From NCBI GenBank assembly GCA_031292555.1, contig JARLGV010000056.1:1-64000 (forward strand): 64,000 nt of DNA, written 5' to 3'. Positions 5,702 to 55,427 of the stretch are shown here, piece by piece. The notes under the pieces are model-generated. The model was not told the DNA's origin, did not search any database, and saw nothing but the letters and a program-made list of their open reading frames with translations. Position numbers and translations under genes: made by a program. The DNA is from Fimbriimonas sp. Lineage in GTDB: Bacteria; Armatimonadota; Fimbriimonadia; Fimbriimonadales; Fimbriimonadaceae. Every line of letters starts with the position of its first letter. Positions within the stretch are counted from its first letter, which is position 1.

Positions 5702-8700
5702 TTAGGTAATGGTAAGGGTCACCGTCTTTGAACTGGTTCCCGACGTTGCCGTTATGGTTGCAGTTGTCTGCGAACCTACAGAAACTGACTTGACTGCGAA
5801 TGACGAAGAGGTCTTTCCCGCCGCTATCGTCAAAGTTCCCGGAACGGGGGCCGACGAGGAACTGCTCGACAGTGAGATCACCAAGCCGCCAGTGGGAGCG
5901 ATCGACGCGATCGTAACCGTCCCGGTGCTCGACTTACCTCCTTTTATCGATGTTGGATTCATCGAGAGTGACTTGAGCTGGGGCGCGTTTACGGTAAGTG
6001 TTGTCGTCTTTGAGACAGAACCCAGCTTGGCTATAAGCATCGACGCCGTCTGAGTGGCGACCGGCAACGTCTTGATCGAGAACGTCACGGAGCTCTTACC
6101 GGCCGGAACCGTGACGGATGAGGGTGGCGTTGCAGACTTGGTGTTGCTTGACAGTTTCACCAGAATCCCGCCCTTGCCGGCCACCCCACTCAGAGTCAGT
6201 GTCCCGGTAGCAGTTGTGCCCCCAGTCAAACTCGTGGGGCTGACGGTCATCGCAACCAACTGCGGAGCCGCTATCGTGAGAACCGCCGACTGCTTGTTGC
6301 TTCCGAGGGCGGCCGAGATTGTCGCGTTTTGCTGAGACGCGACCGCCAGGGTCTTGACTGCGAACGTGGCCGATGCATTACCGACGGAAATCGTCACGCT
6401 CGCCGGCGTTGTCGCTAGCGTGGAACTGCTCGACAGTTTCACAAGAACGCCGCCGGTACCTGCCGCCCCGCTTAGCGTGACGGTTCCGGCCGAAGCCGTC
6501 CCGCCGGCGACCGTCGCCGGGTTGAGCGTAACCGAGGCTAGAGTTGGCGGCGTGACCGTTAGGTTCGCGCTCTTTGTAACCGCTCCGCTGACTGCGGTAA
6601 TCGACGCAACTGCCTGAATAACAACCGACTTGGTCTTAACCACGAACGTCGCCGAACTCTGACCTGGGAGCACCTTCACCGAGCCTGGCACCGTAACCAA
6701 GCCGTTCCCGCTCGACAATGAAACAAGTAAGCCACTGGGCCCGGACGGGCCACTGAGCGATACCGTGCCTACCGAATTGCTGCCGCCCACAACCGAAGTT
6801 GGGTTTAGGGAGACCGATGCGAGAGCCGCCGGGCTAATCGTTAGCGACGCGGTCTTCGACGAACTTCCGACGGTGGCGGTAATGACAACGGTGGATTGGC
6901 TGTCCACGCCTACCGAGTTCACCGCAAACGTACTAGATGTGGCCCCTGCCGACACGATAACGGTTGCCGGGACGGTCGCATCTGCGCTGCTAGCAGTTAG
7001 CCCGATCAACATACCCCCCGAAGGAGCAGCCTGCGAAAGTGTGACAGTACCAGTTGACGCATTCCCGCCCTGAACCGAAGTTGGGCTGAGGGAGACGCCG
7101 GTGACCTGGGCTACGCTGACCGTCCCCAGCGCATAGACGTAACCGTCATCCGACCCGATATAGACCGCTCCATCCAGGCCGATGGCAGGCGACGACTCCA
7201 CGCCTTGACCTGTCGTAAATGCCCACAATTGGACTCCATATCTACTTAGGGCATAGACGTTTTTGTCCTGCGACCCTATGTATAGGGTCCCGTCCGCTCC
7301 GATCGCCGGTGAGCCGTCGATCGCAGCTGCGGTTTTGAAGCTCCAAACCTTCTTCCCACTCGGGCTCAACGCGTAGAGATTGCCGTCATCCGAGCCAATG
7401 TAAATCGTGCCGTCGGGATCGACCGCCGGCGAGGCCCCTTGACGACTGCCGATGGAATAGACCCATTTGAGCCCTCCTTCTGGACTGAAAGCATACAGGT
7501 GATTGTCGGTCGAACTAACAAAGACAGTGCCGTCCAAGCCGATCGCCGGATCGGAGATGATGGGGTTGCCTGTCTGGTAGCTCCATTTCGCAGAGCCATC
7601 TGGGTTTATGGCGTAGAACTTACAGTCGTAGGACCCAAGGTATATGGTTCCGTCCAGTCCTATGGCAGGTGAGGAAACAATGGCTGATCCAGTGGGGAAA
7701 GTCCACTTGAGGGCGCCAGACGAACTTAGGGCATAGACGTTGCTGTCGGTACAAGCCTGGTATACAGTGCCATCCGATCCGGTTGCCGTTGACGAAACAT
7801 TATAGCCTCCCGTTTGGTAACCCCATTTCTGTGTGCCGTCCGGCCGAATAGCATAGAGGTATTGGTCGCCTGAACCGACATAGATCGTTCCGTCCGATCC
7901 GATCGTCGGCGTCGCTCCAATCTGCCCCCCCGTATTGAACGCCCATTTCTGAGTACCTCTTGGATCGATCGCATACACGTGGCCGTCGGAAGACGTTGCA
8001 TAGACGGTTCCGTCTGAACCAATCGCTTGTGACGAACCCAAGTCGGTGCCAGTCGAGAACTTCCATCGAAGCGATCCGTTTGAGGCCGATCCCACGCCAA
8101 CGCTCATGTTAAGGTTGTTCTGGTGATAGCGCGGCCAGCAACCTTGGCCAGGCGTTGTTACGGTCAAGGTGGCCGTGGCAGACTGTGACGCGGACTGTGC
8201 CGTAATCGTTGATGCGGTTGTACCTGTAACGTTGTTCGCCAAGATTGAGAACTTGGCCGTCGTAGCCCCTCCCTCCACGATGACGAATGCTGGGACCGTC
8301 GCGGCGGAGTTGCTACTCGAGAGACTTACGGTATCGCCCCCGGCGGGGGCCGCCTTTGAGAGAGTCACGGTACCCACTGCGAGCGCTCCGCTATGGACCG
8401 TCGATGGGCTCGTCGTCAGACTGACGGCCGCCACCGTGCCTGACGTGCCGATCGCATACAGGTTATCGTCGTCCGACCCTATGTAAATCGTTCCATCGGC
8501 TCCAATCGCCGGGGACGAGACAGAATAGTTGTTGACATTGAGCATCCACTTCGAGGACCCATCTGGATTGACGGCGTGGAACATGAAGTCGCCACCGGCC
8601 CCAAAGTAGATCGTGCCATCAGAACCAACGATCGGGGACGATTCATAGCAGTTGAACATCCTGGACCACTTAAGGCCACCGCTTTGGCTAAAGGCATAGA

Positions 8701-9658
8701 GATAGAAATCGGTCGAGGCGACATAGATCGTGCCATCGGGGCCGATCGCAGGGGAGGTGAAGATGCCGTTACCGGTCGCAAAGCTCCATTTCTTGGTCCC
8801 ATCGGGGTTAATTGCGTAGACGTTCTTGTCCATCGACCCCACATAGATCGTGCCGTCCGATCCCACCGCGGGCGAGGATTGAAGCTGATCGCCGAAGACC
8901 TTCTGGTCGTTCGTCTGGAAGCTCCATTTCTTGGTCCCATCTGGCTTGAGCGCATAGAGGTAACCGTCGAAGGACCCTACGTAGATCGTTCCATCAGAGC
9001 CGATCGCTGGTGTTGAGTCCACGAAATCGCCCGTCGTGAAGCTCCAATTCAGGGTTCCATTCGGCTTCACCGCATAGACCTTGTTGTCGTCTGCCCCAAT
9101 ATACAGGGCTCCATCCGGCCCGATGGCGGGAGACGACAAAATGGGTCCGCCCGTCTTGAAGCTCCAGTCAATCGACCCGTTTGGATTGACTGCCAATAGG
9201 TTGCCGTTCGTGGAACCTATATAGATCGTGCCATCTGATCCAAGGGTTGGCGAAGACATGTCGCCGCCGCCTATCGCCAAACGCCATCGACTCGATCCGT
9301 CCGAATCGAGGGCATAGAGGTTGCCGTCGAGCGACGCAACGTAAATCGAACCGTCCGCGGCAATTGCCGGGGACGCGGTCATCCAATCCCCTGCCCCAAA
9401 GGTCCACTTCTTCACCCCGTTGGTGCCGGTGACCTTCCCCATTCCCGTGTTGAGGCTGTTCTGACGAAACTTTGGCCAGGCGCTCACCTGAAGCGCGGTC
9501 GGATGTGGGCGACCACCTGCCTGTGGGGCATCGACAAACTGAGTTGGACCAATCGCTCGGTTGGCAAGCGACCTCGAAAAAGAAGCAGTAGCAGCGCCCA
9601 GAGACGTGATGGTCAGAACAAGGGCGCCAACGAAAAGGGAAACCTGCCGACGTGCCAT
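5702..9658 (-). CDS. Giant secreted protein: two PQQ-like beta-propellers plus Ig-like repeats
   Basis: Start chosen at the internal ATG (9658) that has GAGG ten bases upstream and begins a clean signal peptide (MARRQVSLF...). The 1318-residue product has a first propeller (about 50-425, eight blades of the form GTIYVGSxDGxLYAxxPDGxxKW), one Ig-like module with TVHSGALAVGTVTLS, a second propeller (about 525-885, nine blades) and five C-terminal Ig-like modules beginning SLxPTSVxGG. Each propeller opens with a WPxFxQNxLNxxxG cap. There is no sortase, PEP-CTERM or type IX signal at the end. The role is unknown; surface adhesion or glycan binding is a guess. It lies downstream of a related WD/Ig protein on the same strand. 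Confidence 0.85.
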   Translation of the reverse strand: MARRQVSLFVGALVLTITSLGAATASFSRSLANRAIGPTQFVDAPQAGGRPHPTALQVSAWPKFRQNSLNTGMGKVTGTNGVKKWTFGAGDWMTASPAIAADGSIYVASLDGNLYALDSDGSSRWRLAIGGGDMSSPTLGSDGTIYIGSTNGNLLAVNPNGSIDWSFKTGGPILSSPAIGPDGALYIGADDNKVYAVKPNGTLNWSFTTGDFVDSTPAIGSDGTIYVGSFDGYLYALKPDGTKKWSFQTNDQKVFGDQLQSSPAVGSDGTIYVGSMDKNVYAINPDGTKKWSFATGNGIFTSPAIGPDGTIYVASTDFYLYAFSQSGGLKWSRMFNCYESSPIVGSDGTIYFGAGGDFMFHAVNPDGSSKWMLNVNNYSVSSPAIGADGTIYIGSDDDNLYAIGTSGTVAAVSLTTSPSTVHSGALAVGTVTLSKAAPAGGDTVSLSSSNSAATVPAFVIVEGGATTAKFSILANNVTGTTASTITAQSASQSATATLTVTTPGQGCWPRYHQNNLNMSVGVGSASNGSLRWKFSTGTDLGSSQAIGSDGTVYATSSDGHVYAIDPRGTQKWAFNTGGQIGATPTIGSDGTIYVGSGDQYLYAIRPDGTQKWGYQTGGYNVSSTATGSDGTVYQACTDSNVYALSSSGALKWTFPTGSAIVSSPAIGLDGTIYLGSYDCKFYAINPDGSAKWSYQTGNPIISDPAIGLDGTVFVSSTDNHLYAFSPEGGLKWVYSIGSRQGASPAVDPDGTIYIGSDDGNLYALSPSGKKVWSFKTAAAIDGSPAIGADGTLYIGSQDKNVYALSRYGVQLWAFTTGQGVESSPAIGLDGAVYIGSDDGYVYALGTVSVAQVTGVSLSPTSVQGGNASTGTVTLSQAAPSGGMLIGLTASSADATVPATVIVSAGATSSTFAVNSVGVDSQSTVVITATVGSSSKTASLTISPAALASVSLNPTSVVGGSNSVGTVSLSGPSGPSGLLVSLSSGNGLVTVPGSVKVLPGQSSATFVVKTKSVVIQAVASITAVSGAVTKSANLTVTPPTLASVTLNPATVAGGTASAGTVTLSGAAGTGGVLVKLSSSSTLATTPASVTISVGNASATFAVKTLAVASQQNATISAALGSNKQSAVLTIAAPQLVAMTVSPTSLTGGTTATGTLTLSGVAGKGGILVKLSSNTKSATPPSSVTVPAGKSSVTFSIKTLPVATQTASMLIAKLGSVSKTTTLTVNAPQLKSLSMNPTSIKGGKSSTGTVTIASIAPTGGLVISLSSSSSSAPVPGTLTIAAGKTSSSFAVKSVSVGSQTTATITATSGTSSKTVTLTIT

Positions 9659-9872
9659 ATACGAAACCTCGCTTGCATTTGTCAGCTTCGCAGTTTCTCT
9701 ATGAGAAGTCAATAGTGGAATTATCTAGGGTCACGGGTGGGGTGAGCCAAGCCGATCGCGAGATCATATTCCCACTCCTGTGTCAGGGGTTGCGAGGGAT
9801 TCCCGAGACACGCGAATCCCATCGCCGCACACAAGGCAGTTGCCCACCCTTCGACCCGACCCTACGATGCTG

Positions 9873-12800
9873 CTAGGAGACGGTAAGCGCCGCCGTCTTG
9901 GATACGGTGCCAAGCGAGCCAGTGATCGTCGCCGAGGTCTTCGCGGTCACTTTCGCCGTCTTCACGGTGAAAGTCACCGAGGTCTTTCCGCTCGGGATCG
10001 TCACCGACTTGACTACCGTGGCCGCACCTACACTGCTTGACAGCGCGACTACCGTGCCTCCAGCCGGCGCGATTGATCCGATCTTGACGGTTCCTGTGCT
10101 AGACGAACCACCCTTGACCGATGTCGGGCTCAACGTGACCGACACGAGAACGGGAGCCGTGATCGTGAGTTGAGCGGTCTTGGAAGAGCCGCCATAGCTT
10201 GCGCTGACCGTTGCGGTAGCCGAGGCTCCGACCGCAATCGTCTTCGACGTGAATGTTGCCGATAGCTTTCCAGCCGCGATTGTTACGCTCGCAGGAACAA
10301 TGGCCGCCTTGGAGTTGCTCGACAGCTTAACGATCGCTCCGCCAGATGCGGCAGGACCGCTTAGCGAGATCGTTCCCGTCGACGATGTCCCTCCCGCAAC
10401 CGTCGTGGGACTGAGAGACACCGACACCAAGGTGGGTGGAGTGACCGTGAGAGGCGTAGTTACAACAACTGTTCCGTCCTTCGCGGTAATCGTCACCGAT
10501 TTTTGGGCGGAAACGGCAACCGTCTTCGCGGTAAAGGTCGCCTGGCTGAGACCACTGGCAATCGACACGGTCGCCGGCACCACCGCAGTCGTTGAACTGC
10601 TGCTTAGCGAAACGACGGTGCCCTTTGGACCAGCGTTACCGTTGAGGCTCACAGTTCCGGTGGAGTTCGTTCCGCCCGCAACCGTCGCGGGGCTCAGGCT
10701 AACAATCGACAACGCGGCAGGAGTGATCGTCAAGGTCGCGTCTTGGGACGCACCGGAGAGGCTTGCCGTGATCGTGGCAGTTGCTCGCTGGTCGACTCCC
10801 ACCGTATTGACGGCGATAGTGCCTGACCTCTGACCTGCGGCAATGGTCATGGATGAATGAACCGTTGCCGAGGCACTGCTGCTCTTTACCGAAACAGTGA
10901 CACCGCTCGGACCGGCCTGCCCATCGAGAACAACAGTCGCCGTTGAAGTGCTGCCGCCTGCGATCACGCTCGGGTTCAGGTTTATCGCGCTCAACGGCGC
11001 CGGGGTTAACGTGATTGCCGAGGTCTTCGAGCCGCTTCCGCTTCCTGCCGTCACGTTGACGCTCGTTTGCGCATCGACTCCACTGGTGGTGACGACAAAT
11101 ATCGCAGTCGTTGCCCCAGCTGCCACCGTAACCGTCGTCGGAACGGAGACGCTTGCGCTATTCGTAGACAGGCCGACTGAAAAACCGCCGGTTGGAGCCG
11201 CCTGCGAGATGGTCACCGTACCCGTCGATGTACCTCCTCCCGTCACGGTCGTCGGATTGAGGGAAAGCCCGGACACAGAGATGCTATTTAGGGGTGGAAT
11301 CGGAGCTACGGAGAACCCTCCACTCGAGGTCCCCAGAGCGATCGATCCACCGGCAGGGGAGACAGCAACGGGTCCGACATTCCCAATGCCGAATGTGGTG
11401 GTCAGAGCGAAGTCGCTTGCGTCAAAGACCTGCAGGCCGGCGTCGCTACTTAACAACATCTCCTTCCCGTCGGTCGAAAAGGCAACTGAGGCCACGGCTG
11501 TGGTTCCTGCCGCTAGCTTTGGCGAGGAGGCCAACTTGCCCGTTGCCACATTCCAAACTTCCATCACTCCTCCGCTATCGGTTTGACCGGCGTCAGCAAG
11601 GTTCGCGCTGTCTGAGGTGAAGGCGATGGAGGCGATCTGGACTGTTGAGTTGAGAGTGAAGATTAGCGCGCCGCTCGATGCGCCGAAGAGCTCCAAACCG
11701 CCGCCACCCAAGGCCAATGTTTTTCCGTCTGGTGAGAACGCTACCGAATGGGGGAAGTTGTCTGAAGTTGTCAGGGTCTTAGTCTTTGTACCGGTCGCGA
11801 CGTCCCAAAGCTCGAGCACTCCCGCATATTGCCCTCCGGTAGTCGAGTACTGGCCGGCAACCGCCAAGGTCTTGCCATCCGGTGAAAATGCCATCGTCTT
11901 GATTTCCACGTTGGCATGCGTGGCGAGGGAGGCCCTCAGAGTTCGTGCCGACACGTTCCACAGCTCCAGCACAGCCTTGGAGGCGCTGCCATATCCGCCA
12001 ACAGCCAAGGTCGTCCCGTCGGGCGAGATCACTGCCGACGCGACCGACTGGCAAGCCGTGGTCAAACTCGCCTCCAGAGTCCCCGTCGCCTCATTCCAGA
12101 GATCCAAGATTCCAGCGCTCTTGGTGGAACCGTCGTACCCTCCAGCCACAAGCGTTTTGCCGTCGGGCGAGAAGCCCAGAGTAAAGGTATTGTAGAAAGA
12201 CGGAAGTGCGGTGGACGAGACCTGCGTCGCTGATGCCACATTCCAGATTTCCTTGACTCCATCGTACTTGTTGTCGATCCCGCCGACAAACACGAACTTG
12301 GAGTCAGGCGAGAAACTGGTTGTCCTTACTGCCGCGTTGGCATCAGTCGCCAACGAACCGACCTGCGTGTTTGTGGAGGTCGTCCACAGCTCGAAAACTC
12401 CCTTATTTGCTGAACTGACTCCGCCATCGCTGAGAGTCTTGCCGTCGGGCGAGTAGGCCACCGAGCTGACGGTCTGAGTCGCCGCTGTTTTGAGCGAAGC
12501 GCTGAGACTTGCCAACGAGACGTTCCATAGCTCCAAAACTCCGCCGGTCGCATCGCCACCGCCTACAGCAAGGGATCCGGCGTCGGGTGATAAGGCGACC
12601 GACAGGACGTCGGTTGCCGCCGTCTTCAGCGTTCCGCTGAGGGTTCCGGCTGCCACGCTCCACGACTCCACTACGCCGGTGCTCGACCCGGTCGATTGGT
12701 TGGCCGCCAGTCCACCGTCAAAAAGGAGCTTGCCGTCGGCCGAGAACGCCACGGAGTTAACCGCAGTCGCACCGGTCGTAAGCCATTTTGTCAGCGTCGC

Positions 12801-13325
12801 GCTCTGAACATTCCACAGCTCGAGGACTCCCGTTCCAACTCCTCCAAACGGGGCATTCTGCCCACCTACCGCCAAGAGTTTCCCATCTGCGGTAAAGGCA
12901 ACCCCAAAGGCGCTTGTCGCCGACGTGGCGATTCGGGTGACCAGTTTGCCGGTCGATGCGTTCCAGATCTCGACGACACCGATGTTGGTGCCTTGACTGG
13001 TTTTGTAGAGCCCGCCGTCAGCGATCATCGCTCCGTCCGCTGAGAACGTAACCGCATTGACGGTGGAGGCCGCCGTCGGAAGGCTCAATGCCGCATTGGT
13101 TGCCGTGGTGAGGATCTCGAGCCCTCCCGAACTCCCCAACGCCACTTTGGCGCCGTCATGCGAATAGGATGAGCACGTTGGCAACGTGAGTTCACTATGA
13201 GTCCAATTCGCGGTGAAGTTCGTTTGGGCAGAACACACGGCGGGCAAAATGGCCAAGGCTCCAGCAACTGACAAGAACGCGACACGAGGCAAGACAAGAA
13301 TGCGAAAGGAGTTATGTTGGGACAT
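9873..13325 (-). CDS. Secreted WD40-like repeat protein with Ig-like modules
   Basis: A 1150-residue protein with a signal peptide ending near VCSAQ. Residues 30-660 hold about a dozen WD-type repeats of the form SVAFSPDGKTLAVGG...GVLELWNVATGTL, probably forming one or two propellers. Residues 680-1150 are five Ig-like modules with the SLSPTTVAGG signature, closely related to those of the neighbouring propeller gene. The two genes are in the same direction with about 210 nt between them and probably arose by shuffling of the same modules. The function is unknown. The repeats make long antisense ORFs that I regard as shadows. Confidence 0.85.
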   Translation of the reverse strand: MSQHNSFRILVLPRVAFLSVAGALAILPAVCSAQTNFTANWTHSELTLPTCSSYSHDGAKVALGSSGGLEILTTATNAALSLPTAASTVNAVTFSADGAMIADGGLYKTSQGTNIGVVEIWNASTGKLVTRIATSATSAFGVAFTADGKLLAVGGQNAPFGGVGTGVLELWNVQSATLTKWLTTGATAVNSVAFSADGKLLFDGGLAANQSTGSSTGVVESWSVAAGTLSGTLKTAATDVLSVALSPDAGSLAVGGGDATGGVLELWNVSLASLSASLKTAATQTVSSVAYSPDGKTLSDGGVSSANKGVFELWTTSTNTQVGSLATDANAAVRTTSFSPDSKFVFVGGIDNKYDGVKEIWNVASATQVSSTALPSFYNTFTLGFSPDGKTLVAGGYDGSTKSAGILDLWNEATGTLEASLTTACQSVASAVISPDGTTLAVGGYGSASKAVLELWNVSARTLRASLATHANVEIKTMAFSPDGKTLAVAGQYSTTGGQYAGVLELWDVATGTKTKTLTTSDNFPHSVAFSPDGKTLALGGGGLELFGASSGALIFTLNSTVQIASIAFTSDSANLADAGQTDSGGVMEVWNVATGKLASSPKLAAGTTAVASVAFSTDGKEMLLSSDAGLQVFDASDFALTTTFGIGNVGPVAVSPAGGSIALGTSSGGFSVAPIPPLNSISVSGLSLNPTTVTGGGTSTGTVTISQAAPTGGFSVGLSTNSASVSVPTTVTVAAGATTAIFVVTTSGVDAQTSVNVTAGSGSGSKTSAITLTPAPLSAINLNPSVIAGGSTSTATVVLDGQAGPSGVTVSVKSSSASATVHSSMTIAAGQRSGTIAVNTVGVDQRATATITASLSGASQDATLTITPAALSIVSLSPATVAGGTNSTGTVSLNGNAGPKGTVVSLSSSSTTAVVPATVSIASGLSQATFTAKTVAVSAQKSVTITAKDGTVVVTTPLTVTPPTLVSVSLSPTTVAGGTSSTGTISLSGPAASGGAIVKLSSNSKAAIVPASVTIAAGKLSATFTSKTIAVGASATATVSASYGGSSKTAQLTITAPVLVSVTLSPTSVKGGSSSTGTVKIGSIAPAGGTVVALSSSVGAATVVKSVTIPSGKTSVTFTVKTAKVTAKTSATITGSLGTVSKTAALTVS

Positions 13326-21030: not shown

Positions 21031-21927
21031 ATGCGCCATTCTGAGACGACCAAGCCTGGGAATCGCCACTCAACTGGAACAACGCTCGTGACCGGCGCCC
21101 TATTGGTCTCCGCTTCTCTTCTGGTTGTTGTCTTGGGCGGATGCGGCGGCGGAGGCATCCAGGGCAGCGCCTATGGAACATCCGTTGAACACCTCGTCGC
21201 CGTCGACAAAGGACTGCTCCTATACGCCAACGACTACGACAACGTACTCCCCGAAACGAACACTTGGATGGACGCTCTCGCGCCGTATACACGAGACGAG
21301 GGGCTGTACCATTCACCGGCTGTCGCCATCGGGCAATACGGCTATGCCATGAACGCGTCGATCGTCGGGCATTCGGCAACCGCCTTCTCTGACCCGGCAA
21401 CCGTCGAGACTCTCTTCGACTCTACCGACCTGCGTCGGAACGCAACCGACCCAACCTCGACCGAACCAAGGCCAGCACGCTACGGCACGCGAAACACGAT
21501 CGCCTATTTGGACGGCCATGTGCAGGACCAATCGACGGTACCAGGCGCTTCGTCCCCTTTTGCTCAATCACAGGCTCACTTGGCGGCGATCGACGCTGGC
21601 ATGCTCATGTATTCCAACGACTACGATGACGTTCTGCCGCTTGCCGGAAATTGGGAGGACGGCATGTTGCCTTACGTGAAAACGGAAGCGAATTTCCATT
21701 CGCCTGCCGTTGTGAAGAAGAACCCAAGCGACTACGGATATGCATTCAACTCGACGATCGCGGGCCAGCCGCAAACCAGTATTGTCACGCCGGCGACGAC
21801 GATTTCGTTCTTCGACTCCACCGACCTGACGCGTAACGCCACCGCTTCCACCGCCACTCTGCCCAAACCTCCCCGCTACGGATCAAAGAACACGATTGCA
21901 TACGCAGACGGTCATGTTCAGAAGTGA
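21031..21927 (+). CDS. Lipoprotein with two tandem pilin-type DGH head domains
   Basis: Start at 21031 gives 298 residues: a hydrophobic segment (TGALLVSASLLVVVLGGC) with lipobox LGGC, then two copies of one domain. Copy 1 (about 50-165) runs from AVDKGLLLYANDYDNVLP to NTIAYLDGHVQ; copy 2 (about 183-298) runs from AIDAGMLMYSNDYDDVLP to NTIAYADGHVQ. The copies share SPAV, YGYAxN, FDSTDLxRNAT and PRYGxxN. The same DYDDxxP and DGHV marks occur in the heads of DUF1559-like prepilins of this phylum. Here the prepilin helix is absent and a lipid anchor takes its place. The role is unknown; a surface or periplasmic partner of the pilin system is an inference. Confidence 0.8.
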   Translation: MRHSETTKPGNRHSTGTTLVTGALLVSASLLVVVLGGCGGGGIQGSAYGTSVEHLVAVDKGLLLYANDYDNVLPETNTWMDALAPYTRDEGLYHSPAVAIGQYGYAMNASIVGHSATAFSDPATVETLFDSTDLRRNATDPTSTEPRPARYGTRNTIAYLDGHVQDQSTVPGASSPFAQSQAHLAAIDAGMLMYSNDYDDVLPLAGNWEDGMLPYVKTEANFHSPAVVKKNPSDYGYAFNSTIAGQPQTSIVTPATTISFFDSTDLTRNATASTATLPKPPRYGSKNTIAYADGHVQK

Positions 21928-28412: not shown

Positions 28413-28694
28413 CGGTTATTCAGCGACCATTGCAAGAAAGGACGTTTGCACTACAGCAATCGACTATTTTGAGATTCCAACCGTCATAGTTGTGAAGTTG
28501 ATTGGGTCGAGCATTGGCTCGATGATAGCCAAGATTAAATTAAAGGCTTTATACTTTGATCGTATTTTAACCGTTGGCTCGATACGGCCAAGGGATTGCC
28601 AGGCTGTCGGAGATTGTGGTTCGCCTTGAGGAAAACCAGGTCAACTATGCTTGAAGCGATCGAGTTCATCTAAGTGTGAATGGGGGTTCAACAC
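28413..28694 (+). promoter_or_regulatory. AT-rich leader with paired TTGGC/GCCAA palindromes
   Basis: The gap between GH5 and the prepilin has two inverted repeats, TTGGC-N9-GCCAA at 28514-28532 and TTGGC-N8-GCCAA at 28574-28591, 60 bp apart, each containing TTGGCTCGAT. Between them the DNA is AT-rich and holds TATACT (28550-28555), a possible -10 box. This looks like an operator pair around a promoter for the prepilin. The binding protein is unknown. Confidence 0.45.
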
Positions 28695-29489
28695 ATGACA
28701 AGTTTCACCAATAATCGACGCGGATTCACGATCGTCGAATTGTTAGTGGTTATCGCCATCATCGCGGTTCTTGCCGCGATTCTTTTCCCGGTCTTCGCTC
28801 GTGCCAAAGAGAGTGCGAAGCGGACGTCAGCGCTCGCCCAGTGCAAGCAAATCGGCACCGCACTGAAGATGTACCTGGACAACAACGACGACAAGTATCT
28901 GCCGTCCACCAACTACGGCCTACCTGAGACTGCACCTGGGCGCATGTGGCAAATCCCGCTGGAGGGGCTCGTAAAGGACAAGACCATCTTCTCCGCGCCG
29001 GGAAGCGACGGCCAGTTCGCCGAAACGTGGGAAGACCGAGGCCTTATGTCGATCGGCTATAGCAGTGCTACCGCGATCGACAAATCGCAGGGCTGCCCAG
29101 ACAACCAAACGGACACCAAAGGATGCCTCTCGTTCCAGAGCGCCGCGTCGTTCAGTAACGGTGAGAACACAGCCGAAGTGGGCCTTCTAGCCGTAACCCC
29201 AAATGGGCCAACGGCGAACAACTATCGCGGATACGAATTTAGCCCCTACAATGGTCCCGAGAACACCGAAAAGCCCAAGCTGAGCCCGCCTCTGGCGAGC
29301 GACCGAGATCTCGTGAAGGAGATGTCGAACCTGCCAGCCGACGCCATCAAGCCCGTTTACTGCCGGTACATGAGCAGCGGGAACGACGATGGCTATTCGC
29401 CGGTGGTCTTTGCCGACGGCCATGCCAAGGACTTTAGCGCGAAAGCAATCACCGATGGTTCGACTGGAATCATCTGGCGTTTCCGCTAA
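28695..29489 (+). CDS. Prepilin with N-terminal methylation motif and DGH head
   Basis: 264 residues. I prefer the second ATG (28695), eight bases after GGGGG. The leader ends in RRG, followed by [18 protein letters not shown], the class III prepilin signature with the Glu at +5. The head ends with FADGHAKDF, the H-X9-DG-type pattern of DUF1559-like prepilins. It would be processed by a prepilin peptidase and form a pilus or pseudopilus. It follows the GH5 gene but has its own leader. A strong terminator follows. Confidence 0.9.
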
Positions 29490-29557: not shown

Positions 29558-32500
29558 TTATGGGGTGACCGTGAGGGTTGCCGTCACCGGCACACCGTTT
29601 ACCGATGCCGTTATGGTCACGGTTTGTGTCGAACCCACCGCTGAAGTGTCGATCGTGTATGTCGCATGTGACGTTGCCGACGATACCGACACCGATCCAG
29701 GCAGTGTCGCCACCGAGGTATTGGAACTGGACAGCGCGACCACTGTCCCCGACGGACCCGACTTGCCGTTCAAATTGACGGTGGCCGTCACCGTGTTACC
29801 GCCCGAAACCGTCGAAGGGTTCAGGGTTATGGAAAGCACCCATGCTGGCAGTAGGGTCAATACGCACGTCTTCGTGGTCGAACCCAAAGTCGCCGTAATC
29901 GTAACCGGCAGGTTTGAATCCACGCCCAGCGTCTGGACGGTGAAGGTGATGCTGACTGCCCCAGCCGGAACCGTGACGTACGACGGCACAACAACGCTCG
30001 GATTTCCGGAACTCAGAGACACGGCCAATCCGCCGACTGGAGCCGGCGATCCGAGCGTAACTTTGCCCGTAGGATAGTCGCCACCGACGATCTGCAACTG
30101 CGACGTCGATACCGACGACAGCACCGGTGGGTTGACGGTTAGGTTGGCGGTCGACGATTTGCCCTGGTTGGTGGCAGTGATGGTTACTGACTGGGCAGTC
30201 GATACGGCGCTCGTCGTTATCGCAAAGGTGGCATGAGATGTGCCAGAAGGCACCGTGATGGAGGCGGGAACAAGAGCTGCCCCGGAGTTTGAGCTCGAAA
30301 GAGCGACGACCGTCCCAGATGGCCCTGCTTTGCCGTTGAGATTGACGGTTCCAACTACGCTTGCCGCGGATCCTCCGACGACAGATGTCGGCGCGACCGT
30401 CACCGACATCACCCAAGTCGGAATCAGAGTAAGGGTGCAGGTTGCCGTAGTAGAGTTCAGGTTGGCCGTGATCGTCACAGGAGTGCTCGAGTCCACGCCC
30501 AACGTCGTCACCGTGAACGATGCACTGGTTGAGCCGGCCGGGACAGTTATCGAGCTTGGAACAACGACGCTCGAACTGCCCGAACTGAGCGCAACGACCG
30601 TTCCTCCCGACCCGGCGGCCGAGTAGAGCGTCACCGTTCCCGTCGGCGCATCCCCGCCGACGATCGAGGTCGGCGAAGTCGAGACGCTCGCCAAGCCTCC
30701 GCTATTGACGACGACGGTGAGAGTTGCGGTTGCCGACAGGCTGTGAGCAGACGCTGTCAACGTGACAGTCTGGGTGCTCGCCACCGAATAGGTGGTGACT
30801 CCAAAGGAAGCGGTGGACGTATTGGCCGCAACCGTCACCGACGACGGAACCGAAGCCGACGAAGAGTCGGAACTGGAAAGTGTGACGACCGTTCCAGACG
30901 GTCCAGCCTTGCCATTCAATCTCACTGAACCCACCACAGCAACCGCCGATCCTCCCGCCACTGAGTTGGGCGACACCGCCACCGACAGGACTCCCGCCGG
31001 TAAGAGAGTTAGGCTGCACGTCTTCGTCGTCGCGCCTAGCGTCGCCGTGATCGTAACCAATAGGTTTGAATCGACGCCGGAGGTGGTAACCGAGAAGTTC
31101 GCGGTGGATGAGCCAGCCGGGACGGTCACCGATGACGGCACGACGACGTTGCCGCTATTTGAACTCAACGACACCACCGTTCCGCCCGTAGGCGCAGGTG
31201 CATTCAACGTGACCGTTCCGGTCGGAGAGTTGCCTCCGACGATTTGGAGTTGGGAGGTGTACACGCTGAGAAGACCGCTCGGGTTGACGGTCAGAGCGGC
31301 GGTTGACGATTTTCCTTGTGCCGTCGCCGTCAAGGTCGCCGTCTGCTGAGCCGACACAGAATGAGTCGTTACCGTGAAGGTCCCGTGGGAAGTCCCTGCC
31401 GCGACAGTTACGGTTGTTGGAACCGATGCCGCTCCTGGAATAGAGCTGCTTAACGTCACGACCGAACCGGAGGGACCGGCCTTACCGTTGAGGTTGACAG
31501 TTCCCGTCACCGAGGTCGGCGAGCCGCCGACCACAGTGGAAGGAGTGACCGCTACGCTGTAGACCCCCGCCGGCAGCAACGTAAGCGTGCACGATTTGGT
31601 CGTCGAACCCAAGGTCGCGCTAAGCGTCACCGGCGTGCTGGAGTCGACGCCCAAGGTCACAACCGTAAAGGAAGCCGAGGTCGCGCCAGCGGCGATCGAA
31701 ACCGTCGAAGGCACCGTCGCGTTGGCGCTGTTGGAACTCAACGCCACGACGAAGCCTCCGGTTGGCGCCGGCGCTGCCAAGGCGACCGTCCCAGTGGGAT
31801 AGTCGCCACCGACGATCGAGGAGGGCGATGTGGAGATGCTCGCCAAATTCGCGGGATTGACCGTCAGGTTGGCCGACACCGAGGTGGCGCCTTGGGTAGC
31901 CGTGATAGAAACGACCTGCACTGCGGCCACTCCAAATGAGTTCACCGTGAACGTCGCCGTCGTTTGTCCGGGCGCGACCGTCACGCTCGACGGCACCGAT
32001 GCCACCGATGTATTCGAACTCGTCAGCGTCAACACGACGCCCGACGGGCCGGCCGGTCCATTAAGGGTCACGGTCGCAATCGATGACGCTCCGCCTGGAA
32101 CGGATGTCGGATTCAGACTGATCGAACCCACCGTCGCCGGAGTCACGGTCAAAGTTGCAGACTTGCCTACACCCCCCGACGTGGCAGTGACGGTTGCTGT
32201 CGCCGTGGTTGAAACGACCGATGTGGTGATCGAGAAGGTCGCCGAGGTCTGCCCCGCCGCGACGATCACGAAAGCAGGAACAACGGCCGAAGGATCGTTG
32301 CTCGATAGGCTCACGACGTCGCCGCCAGGGGGCGCAAACGATGCGATCGTGACCGTTCCGGTCGATGGGGCGCTCCCAACTACCGTCGACGGATTCAAGC
32401 TTAGGCTTGCGACGGGGATCGTGTCGACCTGGGTGCCGATCGTATAGATTCCCCCGAAAGCGCCCTCCAAATAGAGAGCACCATCCGATCCGATTGCCGG

Positions 32501-34888
32501 AGGCCCCGCGAAGATATCAGTCGTTCCAGAGTTCGTCCAGGCGAGTACGCCCGTGGACGTGATTCCGAAGATCCCACCGTACTGACCGGCGACATAGACG
32601 GAGCCGTCGGCCCCGACGGAAGGCGAGCAGTTGCCGGTAAACGAGTCCCCGGTCTGAAAGTTCCAAAGAAGCGATCCACTCAGGCTGAGAGCATAAACGC
32701 CCCCGTTTGAGCCGGCCACAACGACAGCGCCACCCGGCATGAGGGCGGGAGAACCGCCGAACGAGTCGTTGGTCTGATAGCTCCATAGCAACGCTCCTGT
32801 CGAACTGATGGCATAGACGCCGCCGTTTCCGCCTGCGACATAGATCGTGCCGTCCGGGCCGATTACCGGTGCGCCGCCAAAGGAATCTCCTGTCGCCGCG
32901 TTGCTCCACAGGAATGAACCGGAGGAGTTCATGGCATAGACTCCGCCCATCGATCCTGCCGCATAGATCGTGCCGTCCGGTCCGACTGCCGGCGATCCGT
33001 CGAAGCTATCGCCCGGCGAGACGGACCACTCTAGCGATCCGGCGGAGGAAACAGCGTAGACACCGCCGAAGTATCCGATGGCGTAGATAGAGCCATCCGG
33101 GCCAATCGCTGGAGACCCCGTGAAGCTGTCTCCCGTGGATACAGACCATTGCGATGTTCCGGTGGGAGAAGCTGCAAACATACTCCCGAAATTGCCGATG
33201 CCATAGAGAGTGCCGTCCGAACCTATGGCCAGCGAACCGCTGACGCTATCGCTCAATGGCGCATTCCACAGCTCCCTCCCCGTTCGCGAAAGGGCAATCA
33301 GGCCCGCAGTCGAACCGCCGATATATATGGCGCCATCGGACCCGATGGTGGGTGATCCGTAAAGCTGATCCCCAGTCTGATAGGCCCAGCGAAGGGCGCC
33401 GTTGGAGCCTCCACCAACCCCAATGCCTGTATTCAAGTTGTTCTGGCCGAACTTTGGCCAGGGCGATCCAACCTGATAAGTGCCAACCGGAGTAATCAGG
33501 ATTCCCGTGCTCAGTTGGACGCCGCCCTCTGACGCGGTCAATGTCACCGAGCGGTTCGAGCCAACCGGATAGGTTGTCACCGCAAATGTCGCTTGAGTGG
33601 CTCCCGGGGCAACCGTCACCGAACTCGGTACCGATGCGGCACTGGGATCAGAAGATGTCAGTGCCACGATCGCGCCGGAACCTCCGGCCACACCGCTTAG
33701 AGTAACCGTGCCCGTCACCACGGTCGAGGATCCTCCGGTGACCGAACTTGGGCTTACTGAGAAGCCGGACAGGGCGGGCACAGTCGCGGTCCCGAGCGCG
33801 TAGACTCCGCCGTTTCCCCCTACGACGTAAACTGTGCCAGCTGACCCGATCGCGGCCGATCCGTAAAAAGACTCACCGGTTTGATAGGACCAAGCGAGAC
33901 TACCGGTCGATGAGATGGCGTACACGCCTCCGAAATAGCCCTCGACGTATACGGTTCCGTCTGAAGCCAATGAGGGTGAACCATTCAGCGAGTCACCTGT
34001 CTGGCAACTCCATACTAGCGACCCGCCACTACCGATCGCATAGACCGCACCGCTCGTCCCCGCCGCCAAAATCGTGCCAGAAAGCCCGAGGGCAGGCGAA
34101 CCATTGAGGGCATCGCCAGACTGGTAACTCCATGACAGCGTTCCTCCTGCAGCGATCGCATAGATGCCGCCGTTCTGTCCAACGGCGTAGGCTGTCCCGT
34201 CTGATCCGATTGTCGGCGCGCCGAACAGCGTGTCGCCCGTCTGGTAGCTCCAAACAAGCGATCCAGCAGAGCTGACCGCGTAGACGCCACCGTATGCGCC
34301 GGCGACAAAGAGTGTCCCGTCATTGCCGATTGCTGGCGCGCCGGAAAGCGAGTCTCCGGTTTGGTACGCCCAGACGGCAGCCCCATTCGAAGAGAGGGCA
34401 AACAGTCCTCCGTTAAGGCCCTCAACGTAGATCGTACCATCCGAGCCGAGCGCCACCGATCCATTGAGGAAGTCACCCGTCGACGAAGTCCACACGATCG
34501 CACCGCTGGAATTCACGGCATAGACAGTGCCCGATGAACCGGCGAGGTACACAGTTCCGTCAGTTCCGATAGCGGGCGTCCCATAGAACTGGTCACCCGT
34601 CGGGCAGTTCCATTGGATCACTCCTCCTGGGTTTGCCGCATAGAGCACACCATCTATGCCACAGAAATAGAGCGTGCCGTCCGCGCCGATGGAGGGAGAG
34701 CCGTAGTATTGGCTCAGGCTCTGAAGACTCCAATTCAATAGGCCATTGGACCCACTACTGAGTCCCAAGCCCGTGCCCAGGTTGTTTTGCCCAAACCGCG
34801 GCCAGGGCGATCCAGACTGATATTGGCCAAGGGCCAGAACGCATAGGGAGGTTAAGCAAAGAACGACAAGCAAGCGCAAACGGGACAT
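29558..34888 (-). CDS. Giant secreted double-propeller protein with paired Ig-like repeats
   Basis: 1776 residues from the ATG at 34888, which has GAGG upstream and opens a signal peptide (MSRLRLLVVLCLTSLCVLALG). Two PQQ-like propellers (about 25-375 and 470-835), each opened by WPxFGQNNLxTGxG, are separated by one Ig-like module and followed by ten more. The last eight Ig-like modules alternate between two kinds: one with STSPSSIVGGDYPTG and ending LTLLPAG, the other with VVGGSPTSVTG and ending LTVNPSG, so four tandem pairs of about 191 residues make up the tail. No anchoring signal is seen at the C-terminus. Function unknown. Confidence 0.85.
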   Translation of the reverse strand: MSRLRLLVVLCLTSLCVLALGQYQSGSPWPRFGQNNLGTGLGLSSGSNGLLNWSLQSLSQYYGSPSIGADGTLYFCGIDGVLYAANPGGVIQWNCPTGDQFYGTPAIGTDGTVYLAGSSGTVYAVNSSGAIVWTSSTGDFLNGSVALGSDGTIYVEGLNGGLFALSSNGAAVWAYQTGDSLSGAPAIGNDGTLFVAGAYGGVYAVSSAGSLVWSYQTGDTLFGAPTIGSDGTAYAVGQNGGIYAIAAGGTLSWSYQSGDALNGSPALGLSGTILAAGTSGAVYAIGSGGSLVWSCQTGDSLNGSPSLASDGTVYVEGYFGGVYAISSTGSLAWSYQTGESFYGSAAIGSAGTVYVVGGNGGVYALGTATVPALSGFSVSPSSVTGGSSTVVTGTVTLSGVAGGSGAIVALTSSDPSAASVPSSVTVAPGATQATFAVTTYPVGSNRSVTLTASEGGVQLSTGILITPVGTYQVGSPWPKFGQNNLNTGIGVGGGSNGALRWAYQTGDQLYGSPTIGSDGAIYIGGSTAGLIALSRTGRELWNAPLSDSVSGSLAIGSDGTLYGIGNFGSMFAASPTGTSQWSVSTGDSFTGSPAIGPDGSIYAIGYFGGVYAVSSAGSLEWSVSPGDSFDGSPAVGPDGTIYAAGSMGGVYAMNSSGSFLWSNAATGDSFGGAPVIGPDGTIYVAGGNGGVYAISSTGALLWSYQTNDSFGGSPALMPGGAVVVAGSNGGVYALSLSGSLLWNFQTGDSFTGNCSPSVGADGSVYVAGQYGGIFGITSTGVLAWTNSGTTDIFAGPPAIGSDGALYLEGAFGGIYTIGTQVDTIPVASLSLNPSTVVGSAPSTGTVTIASFAPPGGDVVSLSSNDPSAVVPAFVIVAAGQTSATFSITTSVVSTTATATVTATSGGVGKSATLTVTPATVGSISLNPTSVPGGASSIATVTLNGPAGPSGVVLTLTSSNTSVASVPSSVTVAPGQTTATFTVNSFGVAAVQVVSITATQGATSVSANLTVNPANLASISTSPSSIVGGDYPTGTVALAAPAPTGGFVVALSSNSANATVPSTVSIAAGATSASFTVVTLGVDSSTPVTLSATLGSTTKSCTLTLLPAGVYSVAVTPSTVVGGSPTSVTGTVNLNGKAGPSGSVVTLSSSIPGAASVPTTVTVAAGTSHGTFTVTTHSVSAQQTATLTATAQGKSSTAALTVNPSGLLSVYTSQLQIVGGNSPTGTVTLNAPAPTGGTVVSLSSNSGNVVVPSSVTVPAGSSTANFSVTTSGVDSNLLVTITATLGATTKTCSLTLLPAGVLSVAVSPNSVAGGSAVAVVGSVRLNGKAGPSGTVVTLSSSDSSSASVPSSVTVAANTSTASFGVTTYSVASTQTVTLTASAHSLSATATLTVVVNSGGLASVSTSPTSIVGGDAPTGTVTLYSAAGSGGTVVALSSGSSSVVVPSSITVPAGSTSASFTVTTLGVDSSTPVTITANLNSTTATCTLTLIPTWVMSVTVAPTSVVGGSAASVVGTVNLNGKAGPSGTVVALSSSNSGAALVPASITVPSGTSHATFAITTSAVSTAQSVTITATNQGKSSTANLTVNPPVLSSVSTSQLQIVGGDYPTGKVTLGSPAPVGGLAVSLSSGNPSVVVPSYVTVPAGAVSITFTVQTLGVDSNLPVTITATLGSTTKTCVLTLLPAWVLSITLNPSTVSGGNTVTATVNLNGKSGPSGTVVALSSSNTSVATLPGSVSVSSATSHATYTIDTSAVGSTQTVTITASVNGVPVTATLTVTP

Positions 34889-35050
34889 CGGGCAAGCCTC
34901 AAACAAACACTAAAGATTCCGAACAGTCTACAGGCAACTCTAAATAAATCCAAGTGAATGATTGTGCTTCCTGGTTCTGCAGCAACATTACACACTTACC
35001 CCGCCAGGTTGGAGTCAATCAAACCGAATCTCTCAGGTTACGAACCGACG

Positions 35051-49709: not shown

Positions 49710-50498
49710 CTACTGGCGCTTGTCCCACATGCCGGCGGGCCACGGCCAGTTGACCGGGTCGTTCGGCCAGTAGCTCGGCATGGCCGTGTTGGCCTGGTTG
49801 CCCTGCGCCTTGAGCGTAGCGCTCTTCTGCATGAACTTGGCATGGCCATCGCAGAAGGCGTAGTTGGTGCCGTTCGTGAACATGGTCGAACCTCCGCCCG
49901 TCATGTTGAACTCACTGTAGTTGAACCAGTCCTCAGTCGCCCAACCTTCGCACCATTGGTGGTACCAGTTGGGTCGAGGCGCGATGAGAATCGTGCTGGC
50001 TACCGACGGGATCGAGGTGGCGTTGCCGCTACCGTCGTCGCAAGTCGGCGACATGTTGCATTGCTCCGACCCGGCGCCCCACCAGATTCCGCTTGAGTTC
50101 GCCCACGACGGATAGAGGTAGTTCATGCTGTACGTGACCGCACGAGTCTGCGTTCCGGGAAGACAGGTTGGGTCGGTTCCTTCCGTTCCTCGCCCCCAGT
50201 TGTCGACCGGGGACTTCCACATGGCGACGTTCTTTACGTACGGACCGACTTGTTGATGCCAAGGCAGCCACTCGGAGTTCCAACCCCAACAGAAAGGCAT
50301 TCGATCGTCGTTGTCGGTGTTGTACATCACAACGGCAAGGCCAAGCTGCTTGTTAGCGGACAGGTCGACAGTCTTCTTGGCCGCAAGCTTGGCTTGGGCA
50401 AAGACCGGGAAAAGGATAGCGGCCAAAATAGCGATGATCGCAATTACGACCAACAGCTCAATGAGCGTGAAGGCTTTAGAGAGATGAGTTTTATTCAT
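49710..50498 (-). CDS. Prepilin with DGH head, in the sugar operon
   Basis: 262 residues. Leader MNKTHLSKA, then [21 protein letters not shown] and FPVFAQAK, the typical prepilin of this phylum, with GGAG in front of the ATG. The head includes AFCDGHAKFMQ and many Trp and Cys residues (WGWNSEWLPW), which suggests aromatic faces that could stack against sugars, an inference. It overlaps the end of lacI by 8 nt, so it is translated from the same message as the regulator and the transporter genes that follow. Confidence 0.9.
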   Translation of the reverse strand: MNKTHLSKAFTLIELLVVIAIIAILAAILFPVFAQAKLAAKKTVDLSANKQLGLAVVMYNTDNDDRMPFCWGWNSEWLPWHQQVGPYVKNVAMWKSPVDNWGRGTEGTDPTCLPGTQTRAVTYSMNYLYPSWANSSGIWWGAGSEQCNMSPTCDDGSGNATSIPSVASTILIAPRPNWYHQWCEGWATEDWFNYSEFNMTGGGSTMFTNGTNYAFCDGHAKFMQKSATLKAQGNQANTAMPSYWPNDPVNWPWPAGMWDKRQ

Positions 50499-54600: not shown

Positions 54601-54627
54601 GCGGGGTGCGGACGGACCGCACCCCGC
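54601..54627 (+). terminator. GC-rich hairpin between glycosidase-like gene and prepilin
   Basis: GCGGGGTGCGG (54601-54611) and CCGCACCCCGC (54617-54627) form a perfect 11-bp stem with a 5-nt loop, starting 7 nt after the stop. No T run follows, so it may attenuate rather than end transcription. It contains the GTG at 54606, which makes that start of the prepilin unlikely. Confidence 0.7.
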
Positions 54628-54650
54628 ACCAATATGCCATCATCTCAATA

Positions 54651-55427
54651 TTGTTTAGTACCCTATCGAATACCCGCAAACTCACTGCATTCACTTTGAT
54701 TGAACTTCTCGTTGTGATTGCGATCATCGCGATCCTTGCCGCGATTTTATTCCCCGTCTTTGCCCAAGCAAAGAGTGCGGCGAAGACGGCGGCATGTGCC
54801 TCCAACCTCAAGCAGGTCGCAACGGCCCTAACCCTCTATCAAGGCGATTTCGACGACGCCTATCCGAACACAGGAGACCCTTACCTCTGGTTCGGACAGC
54901 ACTTCCGCTGGCCGATCATGCCCTACCTGAATATCGGGCAGAAGGAGAACGGTTCGACGTACAAGGCGGCCGCCGGCGGCGCCCAGATCCTCCAGTGTCC
55001 CGAGGATGTTACTGCTCAGGGCACCTTCGACAACACGTCGTACGCCTATTCGGCCACGTTGTACCATTCGCCGGATCAGGTCGCCGAATTCACGATCAGC
55101 TCGTTAGTCAACGCCCAATCGTCCAACGAACTCACCTGCATCACGCAGACCGGTTCGGCGATGTCCCAGCCCGCGTCCAAAGTCGTGGTCGAAGAGTGGC
55201 TTACGAATCACCGCCATCCGGCCGCGCCGATCGGCTTCTGGGGACTGCAGACCGATATCACTCAGCCCGGCGTCAACCAGTGGACTGGAGCCCGCAACGC
55301 CGCCTTCGGAGACGGTCATGTCAAGTTGATGCAAGCCGGTGCGCAAACCCCTTCCGTCCAAAACTGCCCCGACATGAACCTAACTCCGGGCGGCATCGCA
55401 GGTTCCGATCTGCGATCGATCGGCTGA
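54651..55427 (+). CDS. Prepilin with DGH head, behind a glycosidase-like gene
   Basis: 258 residues using TTG at 54651; no ATG precedes the helix in frame, and the upstream GTG (54606) lies in a hairpin stem. The leader LSNTRKLTA precedes [18 protein letters not shown] and FPVFAQAK. The head ends [14 protein letters not shown]. No clear ribosome site is seen. It would be processed by prepilin peptidase and join a pilus or pseudopilus. It is the third prepilin of the window that lies next to a glycan-active enzyme gene. Confidence 0.88.

Follow-up and report, generated by a model that had tools for sequence, protein, structure and literature searches.

The gene at 21,031 to 21,927 on the forward strand of the window (the whole 64,000-nucleotide stretch of Fimbriimonas sp. 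DNA that was analysed) encodes a predicted lipoprotein of 298 amino acids with two tandem domains homologous to prepilin heads. The best explanation, to which we assign a probability of roughly 60%, is that it is a secreted lipoprotein whose two compact DUF1559-type heads would form a membrane-tethered binding module for the capture or sensing of extracellular ligands. Each of the two heads starts at α1-C, the C-terminal half of the pilin helix. With neither a prepilin-peptidase site nor the helix's membrane half, the protein cannot be incorporated into a filament. Instead, the lipid anchor would keep the heads at the membrane, where they may bind or sense an extracellular or periplasmic ligand, each molecule offering two binding units. 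The glycine after the lipobox cysteine would, by the E. coli +2 rule, place the protein in the outer membrane, which is an extrapolation. The protein belongs to a wide Armatimonadota class in which the prepilin head has become an independent extracytoplasmic domain mounted on different anchors.

The tandem-head lipoprotein gene

The reading frame begins with ATG, ends with TGA and is matched by five full-length homologues from the same genus. Residues 1-38 (21,031 to 21,144, forward strand) form a putative signal peptide, in which a positively charged N-terminus and a hydrophobic stretch lead up to the lipobox Leu35-Gly-Gly-Cys38; a glycine-rich stretch follows the lipid cysteine. The original prediction had named a lipobox, and this was borne out: the cysteine is kept in all six homologues, and the genome encodes the signal peptidase II LspA (PF01252, E 1.2e-35). 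Head copy 1 comprises residues 45-165 (21,163 to 21,525, forward strand; own-genome profile match E 2.6e-43) and head copy 2 residues 174-298 (21,550 to 21,924, forward strand; AlphaFold pLDDT 97.9, pTM 0.91). The two are 52% identical over 123 amino acids (E 2e-46), and each of the motifs SPAV, YGYAxN, FDSTDL and IAYxDGHVQ is found in both, so that the claim of two copies of one domain holds as well.

No family of Pfam, NCBIfam or PHROGs recognises the protein. Specifically, it has no match to PF07596 (DUF1559; Pfam cut-off 23.3 bits) and no model match to TIGR04294 (H-X9-DG), and both PF07963 and TIGR02532, which describe the N-methylation signal with its GFxxxE peptidase site, are absent. 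In a genome-wide scan, the N_methyl match on this contig nearest to 21,031 lies at 28,710, indicating that no upstream prepilin helix had been missed. Pfam matches to SBP_bac_8 and CD24 were under the cut-off and were discarded as chance, and phmmer against the PDB returned only chance-level matches, the best being hydrogenase small subunits. A scan for promoters and terminators found nothing.

Homology to prepilin heads and predicted fold

A profile of 41 heads was aligned profile to profile (hhalign) with a profile of 36 prepilins from the genome of the tandem lipoprotein. The match has a probability of 99.8 and an E of 8.8e-28, covers 122 of 123 columns and extends over prepilin residues 31-213. 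With the helix removed on both sides, the probability is still 98.9 (E 1.1e-17), while a reversed profile and ten column shuffles, run as controls, gave nothing. By this profile homology, the domain of the tandem lipoprotein is a prepilin-type head, and not the unrelated domain that had been considered as a refutation. At an E of up to 1, PF07596 matches 14 of the 41 heads, and the helix-less relatives from L178, L187 and L162, described below, score above its cut-off.

Three prepilins elsewhere in the window served for comparison, at 54,606 to 55,427 (forward strand; N_methyl and DUF1559, outside the locus), 28,680 to 29,489 (forward strand) and 49,710 to 50,498 (reverse strand; a match to the H-X9-DG model). 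The heads of the window's prepilins share with the tandem lipoprotein the motif order PY.K, P, SY..N, PA.T, DGH. The resemblance to these heads that had been claimed therefore stands at the level of homology and motif order, but not for the exact words FDSTDL and YGYAxN, which are not common to them. Several other features of the window are recorded here in their own right. Between 46,288 and 50,498, a prepilin with a DGH head and a LacI-type regulator gene adjoin sugar ABC-transporter genes (identities from translations), as if the pilin were part of a sugar-use locus. At the edge of the window, positions 12-57 match the Acido-Lenti-1 RNA (RF01687, 46.5 bits). The segments 29,558-34,906 and 5,702-13,325 encode very long, secreted-looking proteins with PQQ- or WD-like repeats and Ig-like SLNPxxVxGG tails, as read from translations.

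The protein had been described as lacking the pilin helix, which is correct for just one half of that helix. Roughly the first 30 residues of the mature form are missing; they hold the GFTLIE peptidase site and make up the half that serves in the membrane and in assembly. The α1-C half (L..I..GMLMYSNDYDD) is kept in both copies. In copy 2 it corresponds to residues 176-197 (21,556 to 21,621, forward strand) and to prepilin mature residues of about 31-53, as placed by hhalign and by the models, with helix 3-24 in the head and helix 3-53 in the prepilin. For copy 2, AlphaFold predicts a helix of 22 residues and, after it, strands at YGYA, ISFFD, IAY and VQ. The prepilin at 54,606 was modelled with a pLDDT of 71; its model is weak in the loops and contains strands at matching places after its one long helix. 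In both models a helix comes first and is followed by four strands or bridges, whose order agrees. The retained α1-C belongs to the folded domain in the head model.

When the prepilin model was compared by VIA-align, the only PDB chains listed were type IV pilins, the best being PilA4 (Z 5.1, rmsd 3.4, 116 aligned residues). The isolated head gave nothing meaningful with Foldseek and VIA-align against the PDB and BFVD, with no Foldseek E under 7 and a top VIA Z of 2.6. This lack of structural matches does not speak for a new fold.

The known DUF1559 (PF07596, SBP_bac_10) prepilins with an N_methyl (PF07963) helix, found in the Armatimonadota and Planctomycetes, share the head profile, the motif order and the α1-C helix with the tandem lipoprotein. 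In contrast to them, the lipoprotein lacks the class III signal and the membrane half-helix, falls below Pfam detection and carries compact heads (about 120 amino acids, compared with 180-280), two per chain, on a lipid anchor. The C-terminal N..AYxDGHV segment is shared with the H-X9-DG family, but the histidine nine residues before DG is replaced by tyrosine in all 12 tandem head copies.

Conservation, selection and genomic neighbourhoods

The full-length two-head lipoprotein with its lipobox occurs in five other genomes of the genus, six in all. In the five relatives the cysteine follows a hydrophobic stretch, although MAFFT places two of them three columns off. The gene is intact in every one of the six genomes, with the motifs preserved in both copies, and the dN/dS of the closest pair (L107 and L108) is 0.13; judged by these substitution rates, it is under purifying selection. 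These data already weaken the idea that the protein is a retired pilin, a relic that arose when the export helix of a head was lost and a lipobox happened to be acquired, and that has been retained without a specific role. In favour of this idea, signal and anchor types vary within the family, and in the L110 cluster discussed below two of four heads carry GFTLIE or GFTLFE and two do not, but a relic of this kind is very improbable.

The dN of the closest pair is 0.10, higher than in six flanking genes (0.01-0.06). This faster evolution, together with the tandem surface-type domains and the glycine-rich stretch after the lipid cysteine, would suit a surface adhesin or structural spacer, in which the two heads coat or stiffen the envelope or bind matrix carbohydrate without signalling. 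However, related architectures with a kinase, a sigma factor or a response regulator suggest that at least some members of the family transmit information, and we regard an adhesin or spacer as unlikely.

Five distinct neighbourhoods of the gene were examined, and none is common to the homologues except between the two closest relatives. An operon with the upstream cytochrome genes was discarded because the homologues have other neighbours. The original prediction had also proposed that the protein serves the pilin system as a decoy, receptor or adaptor. In such a role, the lipid-anchored heads would dock onto pilin or pseudopilin filaments or a secretin, as decoy, cap, receptor or adaptor, by means of retained head-head contacts. 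In favour of this, the heads are true homologues of those in some 89 DGH-head prepilins encoded by the same genome, and they retain α1-C, which is found beneath the head in a filament. Yet no pilus gene lies beside the lipoprotein in any of the five neighbourhoods, α1-N, the driver of filament packing, is absent, and the closest head relatives occur in non-pilus contexts, with the head reused across the phylum in non-pilin proteins, where it is joined to signalling or redox domains. The analysis thus gave the proposal no support, and a partner of the pilus system is a conceivable but unlikely reading.

The tandem copies also differ from other heads in a cysteine pair, which is absent from all 12 and replaced by serine at both places in nine of them. 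Among 99 other heads, 59 have both cysteines, 23 neither and 17 one (Fisher p 2e-10, uncorrected for kinship). This joint presence or absence, far more frequent than chance would give, suggests a disulfide in the other heads. The tandem lipoproteins, lacking both the cysteine pair and the histidine of these heads, may differ from them in function. The tree is compatible with a single origin of the tandem lipoproteins, and it does not single out a sister group or their nearest membrane-anchored relatives.

Heads on other anchors in the genome and the phylum

A survey for proteins with such heads but no pilin helix had been proposed, and such proteins were found. In the lipoprotein's own genome, the head profile gave 105 matches. 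An N_methyl helix immediately precedes 89 of them, one further match is the tail end of a protein with that helix, and the other 15, in 14 proteins, have no such helix. Besides the tandem lipoprotein, 13 proteins thus carry a head without a prepilin signal, compared with about 89 prepilins; the profile was built from signal-less heads, so its scores favour these. They include proteins anchored by plain membrane helices, a zinc-ribbon protein and an M56 peptidase fusion, and some of the heads on plain helices still show a prepilin-like stretch of 10 residues. Across all contigs of this genome, there are 122 matches to the prepilin N-methylation motif but a single match to a prepilin peptidase, so that one processing enzyme serves an unusually large set of prepilins.

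Strong matches to the head profile are found in 66 of 121 genomes of the Armatimonadota. The heads occur on plain membrane helices, in other lipoproteins and in fusions to a kinase, an ECF sigma factor, thioredoxin, an M56 peptidase and DUF3352. For example, a protein kinase (L178:2187-4286) and an ECF sigma factor (L179:2319-4376) each possess a C-terminal pilin head. A secreted protein (L187:1394-3037) has two nearly identical heads, in tandem and without a prepilin signal as in the tandem lipoprotein, but followed by thioredoxin. The lipoprotein from L162 is likewise lipid-anchored without a prepilin signal, but it has a single head that keeps both cysteines. An orthologous response regulator, assigned to the NarL type from its sequence, is immediately followed by a membrane-anchored head in 12 of 44 genomes, and these 12 represent nine genera (L154:5882-7133; also L148, L147 and L191-L198). 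Four related genomes have two to four heads in a row beside rpsF and ssb, genes named from their translations. Within one of these clusters (L110:4802-7144), two of the four head genes encode GFTLIE or GFTLFE and two do not, and because signal-bearing and signal-less heads are mixed there, anchors change within a cluster.

Because heads are fused to signalling domains or lie behind response regulators, a role in binding or sensing suits the protein better than one as a decoy for pili. A broader version, which we offer only tentatively, is that the head has been recruited throughout the phylum as a general extracytoplasmic sensor or binding domain off the filaments, placed on kinases, sigma factors, redox proteins and lipid anchors and in operons with response regulators. 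Pili and signalling proteins of one cell might then read the same class of ligand, with the two-head lipoprotein as a free binding-protein arm. Binding proteins and the pilin system are also connected in the archaeal sugar-binding proteins with class III signals (the 'bindosome'). The direction is reversed in that system, where a binding protein acquired the pilin signal that a pilin head has lost here.

Signal-less forms are foreshadowed in the 2014 genome paper on Fimbriimonas ginsengisoli, which reports 79 PulG-like genes, 65 of them with the N-methylation motif (PMC4072686); 14 without the motif are already implied by these two counts. Passages of that paper on these genes give no account of helix-less forms, lipid anchors or fusions, and a search of open-access papers found no literature on helix-less, lipid-anchored or fused pilin heads. 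Large DUF1559 families are known in the Planctomycetes (PMC2754498, PMC10632474).

DUF1559-type prepilins are present in dozens of copies per genome in the Armatimonadota and Planctomycetes, and the role of their head is a standing question. Lipid-anchored and fused heads separate the head from filament assembly. A soluble unit of 125 residues with a confident model lends itself to expression, structure determination and ligand screening. Versions with a kinase, sigma factor or response regulator supply readouts, and the function of a very large pilin family would thereby become testable.
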